Below are positions 15,707 through 20,130 of a stretch of DNA of 64,000 nt, piece by piece. The DNA comes from Parasphingopyxis marina (GTDB taxonomy: Bacteria > Pseudomonadota > Alphaproteobacteria > Sphingomonadales > Sphingomonadaceae). Where the stretch lies: assembly GCF_014237875.1 (NCBI RefSeq), contig NZ_JACJVJ010000002.1:434001-498000 (forward strand), in the 5' to 3' direction. A program made the translations under genes and the position numbers. Positions within the stretch are counted from its first letter, which is position 1. Each line of letters opens with the position of its first letter. The notes under the pieces are model-generated. The model did not search any database. It was not told where the DNA came from and worked only from the letters and a program-made list of their open reading frames with translations.

Positions 15707-17170
15707 CTAGGCGAACCAGCCGCTCGTGGCGCCCGTTTCGCGCGAGGCGACGACATCGCCGCGCAGACGGCCGGCGAACCAGCCACGACCGCCGCGCTCG
15801 GCGGTAGCCACGGCCACCGACACGGAGGCGGAAGCCGGCGTAACCGCGGCGGCGCGCGTCGGCGCATCGGCAACCCGCTCGCGGACGAAGCATTGCTGGC
15901 CGCGCGTTTTGAGCGAGCGGCACAGCGTGTTGGCTTCGGCCCAATTGTCGAATCCGCCGAACGACAGGCGATGATAGGTCTGGCCGTGCTGGAAGACCGT
16001 GCGGCGCGGCTCATATTGCGCGAGCTCGGCATTGCGGCTGACGGCGCGGTCCCAGGCAACCGAAACAAGGGCTTCCTGTTCGAAAGCGCCGATCTGGACG
16101 ACATAGCGCCCGGCGCTCGTCGCCTGCGGCGCCGGCAGCGCGGAAATGCGAACCGGAGCGGCCCGCGGCGCGACCGGAGCCGGCGCGGCAGCGGCGATCG
16201 CCTCATCGGCGGCAACCCACTGGCCTTCGTCCTCGTCTTCGACGACAAAGCCGTCGGCGGCGGCAACCCGCACCGGCGTGCTGTCTGCCGTGATGGTTTC
16301 GGGCACGTCGACCTCGTCGATCGAACGGGCGACGCTGTAATCGTCTTCGGCCGGGGCCGTATAGGCGACGACGGCATTCTGCGTTTCCGCATCGGCGGTC
16401 ATCACCGGCGTCGGCGCGGCGTTCAGCGCGAGCTGGACGGGCTGGCCGGGATCGCCGGCATTGGGCGACACGCCGAGCAGCGAGGCAACCTGATCGGGCT
16501 GCCGTTCGGCCGCGGCGAATTGCGCCCATTCCTGCATGCGCGAATTCAGTTCGGCAGCGCTGACATCCTGCGCGGCGGTGATCCGCGATTCGGCCCAGCG
16601 GCCGGCCATTGCATAGGTGAGTGCCAGATTCTGGCGCGCGCGGGGATCCCCGCCCTCGACCTGGGCCGCCTGGCGAAGCACTTCGATCGCGCGATCGTGA
16701 TTGCCGGCGAGCGCCATGGCGAGGCCGAGATCGGACGCGCCGATACGCCCTTCGAGCGCGTTGAGTTCGGCCAGCGCGTCGGCCCGGTCGCCCTGGGCGA
16801 TCTGGACGAGCGCCAGGTTGAAGGCGGTCCGGTCGAGATCCGGGTTCAGCGTCAGCGCGTCCTGGAAGCTGGTTTCGGCCGAGTTGAACCGTCCGGCGGC
16901 CAGATAGGCGCGGCCGAGCAGATGCCGATATTCGGCGCTGTTCGGCATGAATTCGACGGCGCGTTCGGCGCTGGAAACCGCCGCGGCGCTATCGCCGCGC
17001 CCCAGCGCGGCCCGAGCGACGCCGGCCGCTTCGGAAGCGGCGCGCGCGGCTTGCGTTTCGGATGCACTGGTACCGGTGGAAACGGCCTGCTGTACAAGAG
17101 GCGACACCCCCGCCACCGATGCACCGACCAGCATCGTCGATGCTGCGAGTTTAACCAAAGTCGGTTTCAT
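15707..17170 (-). CDS. TPR and SPOR domain protein, exported
   Basis: The 487-aa protein has an N-terminal signal sequence (MKPTLVKLAASTMLVGASVAGV), tetratricopeptide repeats (about residues 45-200, e.g. AEYRHLLGRAYLAAGRFNSAE and TAFNLALVQIAQGDRADAL), an Ala/Pro/acidic linker, and a C-terminal SPOR domain (about 370-445, starting GRYVVQIGAFEQEALVSVAW) that should bind denuded glycan strands at the division septum. It lies 16 bases downstream of the RHH protein and parA on the same strand, so the three genes probably form one operon. The function is probably cell-envelope or division related; no closer assignment is possible. Confidence 0.85.
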   Translation of the reverse strand: MKPTLVKLAASTMLVGASVAGVSPLVQQAVSTGTSASETQAARAASEAAGVARAALGRGDSAAAVSSAERAVEFMPNSAEYRHLLGRAYLAAGRFNSAETSFQDALTLNPDLDRTAFNLALVQIAQGDRADALAELNALEGRIGASDLGLAMALAGNHDRAIEVLRQAAQVEGGDPRARQNLALTYAMAGRWAESRITAAQDVSAAELNSRMQEWAQFAAAERQPDQVASLLGVSPNAGDPGQPVQLALNAAPTPVMTADAETQNAVVAYTAPAEDDYSVARSIDEVDVPETITADSTPVRVAAADGFVVEDEDEGQWVAADEAIAAAAPAPVAPRAAPVRISALPAPQATSAGRYVVQIGAFEQEALVSVAWDRAVSRNAELAQYEPRRTVFQHGQTYHRLSFGGFDNWAEANTLCRSLKTRGQQCFVRERVADAPTRAAAVTPASASVSVAVATAERGGRGWFAGRLRGDVVASRETGATSGWFA

Positions 17171-17186
17171 CTATCGATCCTCCGTC

Positions 17187-18167
17187 TTAATGTGTCTTGC
17201 GCCCCGAGCTTTTCTCGACGAGCGCTTCGACTTCGGGAATGCTCTCGAGGAACTGGTCGAGAGCAGCCGTAACAAGCCGCTGGGCCGAGCGGTTCGTAAC
17301 CGCCGAAGCCAGCCGCAACTTCAGATGACGTTCCTTGTCGAGACGCAGCGTGAAGGCGATCTTCTCGCGCGCCGGGACCATGTCTTCCCCGACCGAAATG
17401 GTCGGCATCATCAGCGGACGACGCATGGGATGCGGGATCGAGGGAGGCGCGGGCGGCTGGGTCGGTTCCGACGGTTCGTCGTCCTCTGCGGCCTCTGCAA
17501 ATTCCTCGGCTTCCGCCACCTCTTCGACTGCGGACACCTCCTCGGCTTCGGAAGCGTCTTCGGCTTCCGCGGCCTCGGCGAATTCCTCGATCGCGTCGGG
17601 TTCGCCGACCGGCTCGATGGTGGCAAAGCCACCGGTCTCGACGGCTTCGATCTCAGCAGCGTCTTCCTCGTCATCGGCCGAAAACTCGGCGTGATGCTCG
17701 GATACCGGCGGCATCGACCAGGCTTCGGCGCCCGGCGTTTCCATGTCGGCGGTTTCGTCTTCCGGATCTTCCTCGTAATCGCCGTCTTCCGCACCCATCG
17801 GCGTCAGGCCGCCATGGCTGTTGGTCGTGATCGTCGGCCGATCGTCATAATCGTCGGTCAGCTCGCTCTCGAGATCGGCGACGGTGAAGCCGCCCGACGT
17901 CGATTCGTCGGCCAGATCCTCGTTGAGCCTGTCGAGTTGCTTGCGCACTTCGGGAACCGAAGCCTCGCCAAAGCCGTCCTGGTTGTCGGCATCGACCGGA
18001 TGGGGAACATCGTGCCCCATGTCGTTCCAGCCGAGATCGTCGTGAAGATCGCCGGGGGCCACATCGCCGTCGGGGTTCATGAAGCCTTGACGTCGCATGG
18101 CGGGCTTGGCGGCCCCTTTACGCGCTAGCAATCCAGAGGAAAGCGACGCGAATTTTTCTTCGCCCAT
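17187..18167 (-). CDS. ParA-partner candidate: basic N-tail, acidic disordered middle, C-terminal RHH
   Basis: The 326-aa protein falls into three parts. Residues 10-27 read SSGLLARKGAAKPAMRRQ, a short basic segment. Residues about 60-260 are extremely acidic, low in complexity (EAEEVSAVEEVAEAEEFAEA) and probably disordered. Residues about 268-308 (KIAFTLRLDKERHLKLRLAS and on) fit a ribbon-helix-helix fold. RHH partners with basic N-tails stimulate type Ib ParA ATPases (ParF-ParG, delta-omega), and this gene follows parA with a 10-base gap. The ATG at 18167 has GGAG at ideal spacing; the GTG at 18173 is too close to it. The role as the ParA partner is inferred; no annotated family is recognised. 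Confidence 0.75.
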   Translation of the reverse strand: MGEEKFASLSSGLLARKGAAKPAMRRQGFMNPDGDVAPGDLHDDLGWNDMGHDVPHPVDADNQDGFGEASVPEVRKQLDRLNEDLADESTSGGFTVADLESELTDDYDDRPTITTNSHGGLTPMGAEDGDYEEDPEDETADMETPGAEAWSMPPVSEHHAEFSADDEEDAAEIEAVETGGFATIEPVGEPDAIEEFAEAAEAEDASEAEEVSAVEEVAEAEEFAEAAEDDEPSEPTQPPAPPSIPHPMRRPLMMPTISVGEDMVPAREKIAFTLRLDKERHLKLRLASAVTNRSAQRLVTAALDQFLESIPEVEALVEKSSGRKTH

Positions 18168-18177
18168 TGTCACGCTC

Positions 18178-18903
18178 CTACTGTCCCGTCACCCGGCGAC
18201 CGAAGCCTCCAGCTGCTGGACGCGGAGCGGCGCCCTGCTGCTGGGGCGCAAATTTCGGGCCGCTGAAAACGGTGCGGCGGAAATTCTTTTCGAGACGGTC
18301 GGCGATATAGATCCAGAGTTCCTGCATTTCCTGGGCGGACTTGCCCTCGGGGTCGATCTCCATGACCGTGCGGCCATCGATCATCGACGCCGCGAAATCC
18401 GTGCGGTGGTGAAGCGTAACCGGAGCAACGGTGCCGTGCTGCGAAAGCGCGACGGCGGCTTCATAGGTGATTTTCGCTTTGGGGGTCGCCGCGTTGACGA
18501 CGAAGATCAGCGGCTTGCCGGCGCGTTCGCACAAATCGACTGTGGCGCCGACGGCGCGAAGATCGTGCGGCGACGGGCGCGTCGGAACGACGATAAGCTC
18601 GGCGACCTGAATAACGCTCTGGATCGCCATCGTGATCGCCGGCGGCGTATCGATGACGGCGAGCTTGAATCCCTGCTGGCGAAGAATCTCGAGATCCGCC
18701 GCAAGCCGGGCGACGGTCGTCTGCGCAAAGGCAGGCATGTCGTCTTCGCGTTCGTTCCACCAGTCCGCAAGCGAACCTTGAGGATCGATATCGATCAGGA
18801 CGACTGGCCCCGCGCCACTACGCTGTGCCTCAACGGCAAGGTGGCCGGAGAGCGTCGTCTTGCCCGAACCGCCTTTTTGCGATGCTAATGCCAAAACCCG
18901 CAT
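18178..18903 (-). CDS. Orphan ParA/MinD-family ATPase (type Ib-like)
   Basis: The 241-aa protein begins MRVLALASQKGGSGKTTL, with a deviant Walker A motif at residues 10-16, then VVLIDIDPQGSLADWW (Walker A') and LAVIDTPPA (Walker B region). There is no N-terminal HTH, as in short type Ib ParA proteins. It is not the chromosomal ParA of a parAB-parS locus, since no ParB follows; instead an RHH protein does. Such ATPases position DNA, chemoreceptor clusters or other cargo using the nucleoid as a track. The 5' leader can fold into a hairpin hiding the Shine-Dalgarno. A Pro/Gln-rich tail of about 25 residues ends the protein. Confidence 0.88.
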   Translation of the reverse strand: MRVLALASQKGGSGKTTLSGHLAVEAQRSGAGPVVLIDIDPQGSLADWWNEREDDMPAFAQTTVARLAADLEILRQQGFKLAVIDTPPAITMAIQSVIQVAELIVVPTRPSPHDLRAVGATVDLCERAGKPLIFVVNAATPKAKITYEAAVALSQHGTVAPVTLHHRTDFAASMIDGRTVMEIDPEGKSAQEMQELWIYIADRLEKNFRRTVFSGPKFAPQQQGAAPRPAAGGFGRRVTGQ

Positions 18904-18906
18904 GGT

Positions 18907-18940
18907 ATCCCCTTTGCTCGCGGTCTCTCGGCGAGGGGAT
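18907..18940 (-). promoter_or_regulatory. parA leader hairpin covering the Shine-Dalgarno
   Basis: Read on the minus strand, AUCCCC (18940-18935) can pair with GGGGAU (18912-18907). The latter contains the parA Shine-Dalgarno, four bases before the ATG at 18903. An inner UCGC/GCGA stem with a nine-base loop is stacked above a five-base bulge. The structure would block ribosome entry unless opened. The same inverted repeat could instead be a DNA operator for the RHH protein. Confidence 0.4.
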
Positions 18941-19086
18941 TGCCACCACGGTAACTAAAATCTGGTTAATGATAGCTCCCAAAATTTCCTTGAAGTCGCA
19001 GAAAATGACGCTTCAACTTTGCTAATCCTTGTTTAACCCTGTTAGTGGCAAACAGGAAAAAGGCCCGAATTGCTGGAGATTGGCAG

Positions 19087-20130
19087 ATGACGATCAGGCG
19101 AACCCTCATGCTCGGCGCGGCGTTTGCTCTCATGGCGGCACCGACGTCAGTTTTTGCAGGCGTACAGGAAGGCGTGGATGCGTGGCGGAGCGGCGATTAT
19201 GCGCGCGCGATTTCCGAATGGCGGCCGCTCGCCGATGCCGGCGATCCCGATGCGCAGTTCAATCTCGGCCAGGCCTACAAGCTCGGCCGCGGCCTGTCGC
19301 AGGATATGGGCCGGGCGCGCGAGCTTTTCCGGCTCGCCGCCGATCAGGGCCATCTCCAGGCCCAGGCCAATTACGGGCTCATCCTGTTCCAGGAGGGCGA
19401 TCGGCAAACCGCGATGCCATATATAATAGCCGCGGCGGAACGCGGCGAGCCGCGCGCGCAATATGTCTATGGTACCGCGCTGTTCAACGGCGATCATGCG
19501 CCGCGCGATTGGCCACGCGCCTATGCGATGATGGCGCAGGCCGCGGGCGCCGGGCTGCCCCAGGCGCTGGCGAGCATCGAGCAGATGGACGAACATATCC
19601 CGGCCGCCGAACGCGAACAGGGCCTGGCGATGGCCGATCAGATGGCGAGCGACAATGCGGCGATGGAAGTCGCGGTTGCGCCGCCTCCCCCGCCTTCCGC
19701 GCCGCCGCCTTCCGCGGTGCCGCAGCAGACCTTCACCCCGGTCGAAGTGCCGCCGCCGGTCCAGACGGCCCCGCCGCCTGCATCGCCGCCGCGCCAGGCG
19801 CAGGTCCAGGCGCCGCCGCCTACCCCGCCGGCCCCGGTCCAGCACGCCCAGGCAGCGCCGCCGCCCGCCGCTCCGCCGCCGCCCGCCGCACGCAGCGGCG
19901 ACTGGCGAATCCAGCTCGGCTCCTTCCGTGAACGGCCGCGCGCCGAACGGCTGTGGCTCGATGTCAGCGGCCGCAACGCGATGCTCTCCGGCCTCCAGCC
20001 CTATCTCGTCCGCGCCGGGCCCTATACGCGGCTCCAGGCCGGCCCCTTCGCCACGCAGAATGAGGCGCTGCGCGCCTGCCAGGCGGCACGCGCGGCAGGA
20101 TCGGAATGTATCGCCGTCCGCCGCGAATAA
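19087..20130 (+). CDS. Sel1-repeat and SPOR domain protein, exported
   Basis: The 347-aa protein starts MTIRRTLMLGAAFALMAAP with a signal peptide cleaved near VFAG. Residues about 30-165 form Sel1-type repeats (DAQFNLGQAYKLGRGLSQDM, LQAQANYGLILF, RAQYVYGTALF). A Pro-rich spacer (about 195-265) leads to a C-terminal SPOR domain starting GDWRIQLGSFRERPRAERLW. It is divergent from parA across 183 bases. Two peptidoglycan-binding SPOR proteins therefore flank the ParA/RHH pair. The ATG at 19087 is preferred because it directly precedes the signal peptide; an upstream ATG at 19045 would add a charged extension. Confidence 0.85.
   Translation: MTIRRTLMLGAAFALMAAPTSVFAGVQEGVDAWRSGDYARAISEWRPLADAGDPDAQFNLGQAYKLGRGLSQDMGRARELFRLAADQGHLQAQANYGLILFQEGDRQTAMPYIIAAAERGEPRAQYVYGTALFNGDHAPRDWPRAYAMMAQAAGAGLPQALASIEQMDEHIPAAEREQGLAMADQMASDNAAMEVAVAPPPPPSAPPPSAVPQQTFTPVEVPPPVQTAPPPASPPRQAQVQAPPPTPPAPVQHAQAAPPPAAPPPPAARSGDWRIQLGSFRERPRAERLWLDVSGRNAMLSGLQPYLVRAGPYTRLQAGPFATQNEALRACQAARAAGSECIAVRRE

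Follow-up and report, generated by a model that had tools for sequence, protein, structure and literature searches.

What does a ParA ATPase position when it is encoded on a chromosome, beside a ribbon-helix-helix (RHH) protein and between two SPOR genes? We addressed this question for a locus within the window, the 64,000-nucleotide stretch of the Parasphingopyxis marina genome analysed here. Many ParA/MinD ATPases are without an identified partner and have been called orphans, according to the portion of PMC10241942 available to us. The reading that we favour, with a probability of roughly 0.55, is that the locus encodes a chromosomal, cargo-switched ParA system, a largely vertically inherited relative of the type Ib plasmid pair.

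Organisation of the locus

The two minus-strand open reading frames (ORFs) that an earlier sequence-only reading had assigned to a ParA and an RHH partner were both confirmed. The features of the locus are:

18178..18903, minus strand: ParA-family ATPase, ParF-like, without N-terminal extension; 241 aa (ORF, profile and solved relatives)
17187..18173, minus strand: partner protein, made of tag, variable acidic linker and RHH domain; likely ATG 18167
18087..18149, minus strand: N-terminal tag ASLSSGLLARKGAAKPAMRRQ, candidate ParA-docking peptide (invariant residues in the alignment)
18015..18035, minus strand: LGWNDMG short linear motif within the disordered part (LGWND[MLI]G in 78/81 partners of the window's group)
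17241..17357, minus strand: RHH domain, residues 271-309 (profile, AlphaFold2 and Foldseek)
18955..18969, minus strand: conserved promoter-proximal element TTAACCAGATTTTAG, 52-66 bp upstream of the parA start
15707..17170, minus strand: TPR-SPOR protein, signal sequence by inspection (SPOR PF05036, E 5.9e-10)
19045..20130, plus strand: divergent Sel1-SPOR protein, likely start 19087 (SPOR E 5.1e-14, Sel1 E 7.2e-11)

Reading along the minus strand, the gene for the 326-aa partner (328 aa for the whole ORF) begins 10 nt after parA (counted to the likely ATG 18167), and the TPR-SPOR gene comes 16 nt further on; given this short gap, the latter probably belongs to the same operon. The Sel1-SPOR gene is divergent from parA. 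Both SPOR domains score above the Pfam cut-off, and the framing of the operon by two SPOR proteins, which had been pointed out before, is kept in Sphingomonadales.

A ParF-type ATPase and its RHH partner

The ATPase is of the ParF type. Its P-loop (KGGSGKTT) occupies residues 10-17, leaving no N-terminal extension, and its closest solved relatives are ParF-type proteins (4dzz, 5u1g; E 3.2e-14). Against NCBIfam NF041546 (ParA_partition) it scores 166.6 bits, under the curated cut-off of 180, as do three plasmid ParA relatives scanned likewise (158.5-170). Two hallmarks of type Ib systems are present, a short ParA without N-terminal HTH and an RHH partner encoded downstream on the same strand. 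Where canonical chromosomal ParABS has a ParB/Spo0J partner, this locus has the RHH protein. The earlier statement that no ParB is present therefore holds at the locus but not genome-wide, since a ParB_N gene (C1:324930) lies beside a ParA-like frame (C1:324013) elsewhere in the genome.

The partner alone gives no Pfam match. A profile of its C-terminus, built with 22 relatives, matches the RHH proteins 56B (E 1.7e-4), ParG (9.5e-4) and omega (1.4e-3), and more weakly McdB 6noy (E 0.016). AlphaFold2 predicts residues 271-320 with a pLDDT of 82-96 per ten-residue block and the remainder mostly at low confidence and without regular structure, save for two helices, at 71-89 and, shorter, at 96-100. 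Modelled alone, the RHH domain reaches a mean pLDDT of 86.5. A Foldseek search with this domain placed ParG at rank 9, with none of the ten best matches as good as E 0.001; judging from the entry names, we take all ten to be RHH-type.

The N-terminus of the partner (MGEEKF...RRQ) carries a net charge of +4 and has a pLDDT of 47-54, and the 233 residues of the middle part hold 69 D+E versus 6 K+R. An acidic insert between two active ends had been described from the sequence, and it is indeed present in the window partner, but it is not a conserved design: tag-to-RHH linkers range from 50 to 253 residues, and that of the window is the second longest and the most acidic of the 80 measured. The length and acidity seen in the window are thus a local extreme of a linker that varies, and an acidic spacer as a conserved design was rejected because of this variability in length. 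What is conserved in the partner is its two ends and the LGWNDMG motif, which persists despite the otherwise variable disordered linker and may be a docking site for a further client.

The linker helix (residues 71-89, pLDDT 79 and 72 per block) was also considered as a conserved feature. A regular expression for it matched 48/81 partners, two of them (L101, L117) within the tag itself, and missed the window, and we do not claim it. A C-terminal CxC tail (CICG, CPCL, CACL), found in 0/81 partners of the window's group, occurs in 13/17 partners from deeper loci of the order and in 19/31 RHH-type loci of the class.

A conserved N-terminal tag

Within the tag, residues L9, L13, K17, G18, A20 and P22 are invariant in 23/23 diverse rows from the order, a conservation that fits the docking role of published N-terminal peptides. 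In McdB the N-terminal 20 residues, including Lys7, bind McdA (available part of PMC12204374). More generally, positively charged disordered N-termini, likened to a 'luggage tag', are the known or suggested docking parts of published ParA/MinD partners (PMC10241942, same portion as above), and type Ib RHH proteins combine a flexible N-tail carrying an arginine finger with repressor activity (accessible sections of PMC5016525). From the conservation and these analogues we infer that the tag docks on ParA. Arg16, the arginine of the sequence-only reading, is not the best-conserved basic residue: among TM-SPOR and plasmid relatives there are some with K, V or T at this position, which makes Lys17, invariant in those 23 rows, the better candidate. 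K17 is lost in the weakest tags (L229-L232). The DNA pattern of the tag occurs once in its own genome, and this single pattern, searched without mismatches, revealed no second tag protein there.

An order-wide feature of Sphingomonadales

ParA was found in 172/196 genomes of the order at E<=1e-20 and in 168 at E<=1e-60; the four weaker matches (G085, G098, G121, G183; E 1e-21 to 1e-41) are possibly other ParAs. A plain sequence search detected the partner in 139/196 genomes, all of which are also ParA-positive (lists compared by eye). Among the best 80 of 566 ParA matches, the gene after ParA carries the tag in 80/80 loci, counting L131, where the partner frame breaks just behind the tag. ParA in these 80 loci has a median identity of 85.7%, a value therefore biased upward, versus 74.3% for IlvB (14 loci) and 73.0% for PyrB (58 loci); the gene names ilvB, pyrB, pyrC, serB and miaA are presumptive, from our own reading of the translations. 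A partner was also found in 17 of 20 deeper loci of the order; of the other three, L160 is truncated by the end of its contig, L162 was not parsed, and L152 gave no partner. L152 retains ParA, on a long branch (0.92), together with both SPOR genes. In the ParA tree the 29 rows of the order stand together, with one non-order row (L202) inside.

The recurrence of tag and pair throughout the order is far from what chance would give, and the ParA-partner cluster belongs to the chromosomes of Sphingomonadales across the order. The absence of a conserved gene pair, which the sequence-only reading had set against itself, is thus not what relatives display: pair, N-peptide and RHH domain are all conserved.

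SPOR neighbours and tag-SPOR fusions

The 3.31-Mb genome holds six SPOR domain matches in five ORFs (E<=0.001), and two of these five ORFs flank the ParA-partner pair; by our arithmetic, the chance of one SPOR gene lying within 2 kb of a given gene is about 0.1%. Among the best 80 of 566 ParA matches, a home-made profile calls one or more SPOR neighbours in all 80 loci and two in 69, several of the remaining 11 being short contigs. The same profile finds at least one SPOR neighbour in 20/20 deeper loci of the order. A signal peptide in the Sel1-SPOR protein and a signal sequence in the TPR-SPOR protein were recognised by inspection, and both neighbours look exported, so that direct contact with cytoplasmic ParA is not expected. 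By eye, 8/10 of the TPR-SPOR relatives printed have a lipobox; the window copy (15707-17170) is without the lipobox cysteine.

Across the class, the partner profile matched 47/289 genomes at E<=0.01, including four of the window's own family, and ParA was present in 46/289 at E<=1e-35. We considered 42 non-order loci with ParA at 55% identity or more, a line of our own choosing (the E-value gap falls below L235, at 50% identity and 1e-68); 40 are evaluable, with DNA after ParA, while L226 and L227 end at ParA. The tag scores above the maximum of 1020 shuffles in 33/40 evaluable loci and under this threshold in seven (L219, L224, L229-L233), of which four are weak, two degenerate and one shows none. 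The shuffle maximum was exceeded in 0/9 loci with ParA at 50% identity or less; L235, counted as a control, has a small RHH-like partner and by eye at most a degenerate tag (score -11.8). The RHH profile matches 29/33 evaluable non-order, non-SPOR partners at E<=0.01, the remaining four being L200 (E 0.017), the HTH-like L201 and the partner fragments of L223 and L234.

In the other 7/40 evaluable loci the tagged protein contains a hydrophobic helix and has SPOR as its C-terminal domain. The helix-length stretch has a Kyte-Doolittle mean of 1.96-2.71, the Pfam SPOR cut-off is passed in 5/5 proteins scanned, and all seven pass the home-made profile, whose seed included them. Five of the seven genomes also carry an RHH-type pair, each pair with its own ParA. 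Five of the seven SPOR-linked ParAs group in the tree (94/96), L193 is placed with RHH-type rows, and the branch of L197 is long. One tag is thus found in three contexts, on plasmid RHH proteins, on chromosomal RHH proteins and on TM-SPOR proteins (seven loci). To judge from these predicted proteins, the cargo module behind one tag is swapped in nature, and evolution has physically joined the ParA tag to SPOR. In L197 (2490-5146) the ParA/tag-TM-SPOR pair is convergent to a MipZ gene (PF09140, E 4.7e-82).

The strongest competitor of a cargo-switched ParA system, possible though short of an even chance, is that envelope coupling is the real job of the locus: ParA and its adaptor would place or time septal or polar cell-wall proteins, or clear nucleoid bound by ParA from the septum as it closes. 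The TM-SPOR form would then be one protein reaching from ParA to septal glycan; in sphingomonads the exported SPOR proteins would be reached by way of a membrane protein, which LGWNDMG perhaps recruits. The near-constant SPOR neighbourhood in the order, the share of the genome's few SPOR ORFs that flank the pair, and the seven fusions beside ParA, one of them next to MipZ, all speak for it. Against it stand the exported look of the window SPOR proteins, the 0/35 SPOR neighbours among non-order loci without a fusion (L200-L234, several on short contigs), and L152, which keeps both SPOR genes with its partner not found. SPOR framing and fusions together point to the envelope, short of proof. Of the nucleoid-septum link proposed earlier, the framing stands and the fusions add to it, but the exported-looking neighbours cannot themselves tether cytoplasmic ParA, and we regard the septum link as suggestive only.

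The region upstream of parA

In 72/81 loci, versus 22/1600 random windows, the 180 bp upstream of parA contain the motif TTAA-N7-TTA[AG]; all 72 have TTAG rather than TTAA as the second half. A narrower form, TTAACCNNNWWTTAG, has a single occurrence in its own genome and is present in 17/30 genomes of relatives (genus 9/10, other family 3/8, other order 5/12) and absent from the other 13 searched. It occurs once each in nine genomes of the genus, the tenth, 66% complete, being without it; the G482 copy has a different core, and G001 has three copies. The position was checked in four genomes (G000, G122, G177, G189), and TTAACCNNNWWTTAG is upstream of parA in all four. The conserved form of the element was not found in 19 deeper loci of the order, two of which have a looser form further upstream. 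The element may be an RHH operator or a CtrA-like site.

Type Ib systems have as their centromere a set of repeats, direct or inverted, that precedes the operon (PMC5016525, in the sections accessible to us). No repeats of 8 nt or more were found in 18895-19095, and the 7-mer repeat content upstream is at chance in the window (p 0.50) and close to it in relatives (p<0.05 in 6/80, p<0.01 in 1/80). The upstream repeats of a type Ib centromere are thus missing from the region tested, a more distant centromere being possible, and a DNA cargo is accordingly uncertain. Dispersed centromere sites were rejected, since TTAAC-N6-TTAG has five matches in the genome against 15 for the reversed control. 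All five lie on contig C2 and none on the larger C1, and four differ from the conserved form.

These observations also bear on two readings in which the locus does not move DNA. One is mainly transcriptional: the RHH protein would repress the divergent parA and Sel1-SPOR promoters and ParA would modulate this, with no spatial cargo. The divergent layout and the single conserved upstream element agree with it, as does the repressor function of type Ib RHH partners (PMC5016525, as above), but the tag persists in plasmid, RHH and TM-SPOR forms alike, something a repressor alone would not require, and we consider this reading unlikely. The other takes the element for the site of CtrA or another cell-cycle regulator, which would time the positioning of a protein cargo in the manner of McdAB, the RHH domain serving in dimerisation or cargo binding instead of binding DNA. 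The TTAA-N7-TTA[AG] spacing resembles the CtrA consensus (TTAA-N7-TTAA), and the weak McdB match noted above would fit. Given that TTAAC-N6-TTAG is rare in the genome and that the invariant TTAG half departs from that consensus, this too appears improbable. The accessible parts of PMC2877005 and PMC8116508 make no mention of this operon.

Kinship with plasmid partition pairs

PLSDB contains 55 plasmid records in which such a ParA is matched at E<=1e-40, and in the 40 records listed this ParA is 52-66% identical to that of the window. Ten of the 55 regions were inspected. In 7/10 an annotated small gene directly after parA encodes 80-114 aa with the N-terminal tag or a variant, for example ASLTSGLVAKKGQA, or VAVKG or VATKG in L249, L251 and L255; five of these seven small partners are above the inclusion threshold of the RHH profile (L249 and L255 are below). 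L250, L252 and L253 have, by eye, tag-like frames after parA. A rep gene lies next to or near parA in 6/10 plasmids (L247-L251, L256), and repeats upstream of parA exceed shuffles (p<0.05) in 5/10, versus the 6/80 chromosomal relatives given above.

The comparison with type Ib (ParF-ParG) put forward in the sequence-only reading was right in kind. On this evidence the chromosomal pair is kin to plasmid partition pairs. It is without an upstream repeat array, as by the shuffle test are half of the plasmids inspected, and because the repeat centromere of type Ib is missing upstream it is not a strict member of that type. With ParF-ParG of TP228 and delta-omega of pSM19035 it shares the short ParA, the RHH partner encoded downstream and the basic flexible N-tail. 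It differs in being chromosomal and order-wide, in linkers of up to 253 residues, in its SPOR neighbours, in the absence of the upstream repeat array and in having Lys17 as its best-conserved basic residue. The ParAs of small plasmids (Beta/Gammaproteobacteria, Acetobacteraceae; near NCBIfam NF041546) share the N-tag or a variant of it and the RHH partner, and differ in their rep genes and upstream repeats; the annotated neighbours shown include no SPOR gene. That the chromosomal locus is a selfish or plasmid remnant is highly improbable: plasmid pairs do have the same tag or variants of it, but ParA is order-wide and highly conserved, and the rows of the order stand together in the tree.

MatP and ZapT offer an RHH-type DNA protein connected with the divisome and are not known to involve a ParA. 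A further difference is that the conserved upstream element of the present pair is not repeated round the genome. McdA-McdB serves carboxysomes as cargo, and we know of no SPOR protein associated with it. Its likeness to the present pair lies in a ParA-type ATPase and a partner that docks through a tag formed by its N-terminal ~20 residues, a key lysine among them (PMC12204374, in the available part).

A model for cargo-switched positioning

A chromosomal, cargo-switched ParA system could work as follows. ATP-bound ParA would coat the nucleoid, and the flexible tail of the partner would dock its tag, with Lys17 as the best candidate residue, at the ParA dimer, stimulating hydrolysis or release. 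The resulting ParA gradient would move or hold whatever the C-terminal module of the partner binds. In the window this module would be an RHH dimer, which most likely sits on the conserved upstream element of parA and from there would also control its own operon. The RHH dimer would gain its reach to ParA from the disordered linker, and LGWNDMG may recruit a further client. A connection of the pathway with envelope or septum work, made through its SPOR neighbours, is probable.

A broader proposition, which we advance tentatively and hold to be somewhat unlikely, is that one ParA family with an interchangeable tag, borne on an RHH protein or on a membrane-spanning SPOR protein, links the nucleoid to the septal or polar cell wall. 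Were it true, division-site peptidoglycan and a chromosomal site would be positioned by the same kind of ratchet, with sphingomonads using separate clustered genes and other Alphaproteobacteria one fused protein.

The ParA-partner system is real and conserved, and it is not described in the open-licence literature found. No description of a ParA-SPOR pair was met in the open-licence literature searched, including the available part of PMC7822825, and the accessible portions of the Novosphingobium essentiality literature yielded nothing on this operon. With a probable partner and its docking tag readable from the sequence, the 'luggage tag' idea becomes directly testable. What makes the system interesting is that cargo modules have been exchanged naturally behind a single tag and that SPOR is associated with it in two ways; such a swap offers a possible molecular link from the nucleoid to the septal wall.

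The tagged partner of L201 (3712-4233) has an HTH-like C-terminus (HTH_23 E 0.014, under the Pfam cut-off; RHH profile E 1.0), possibly a further cargo module.
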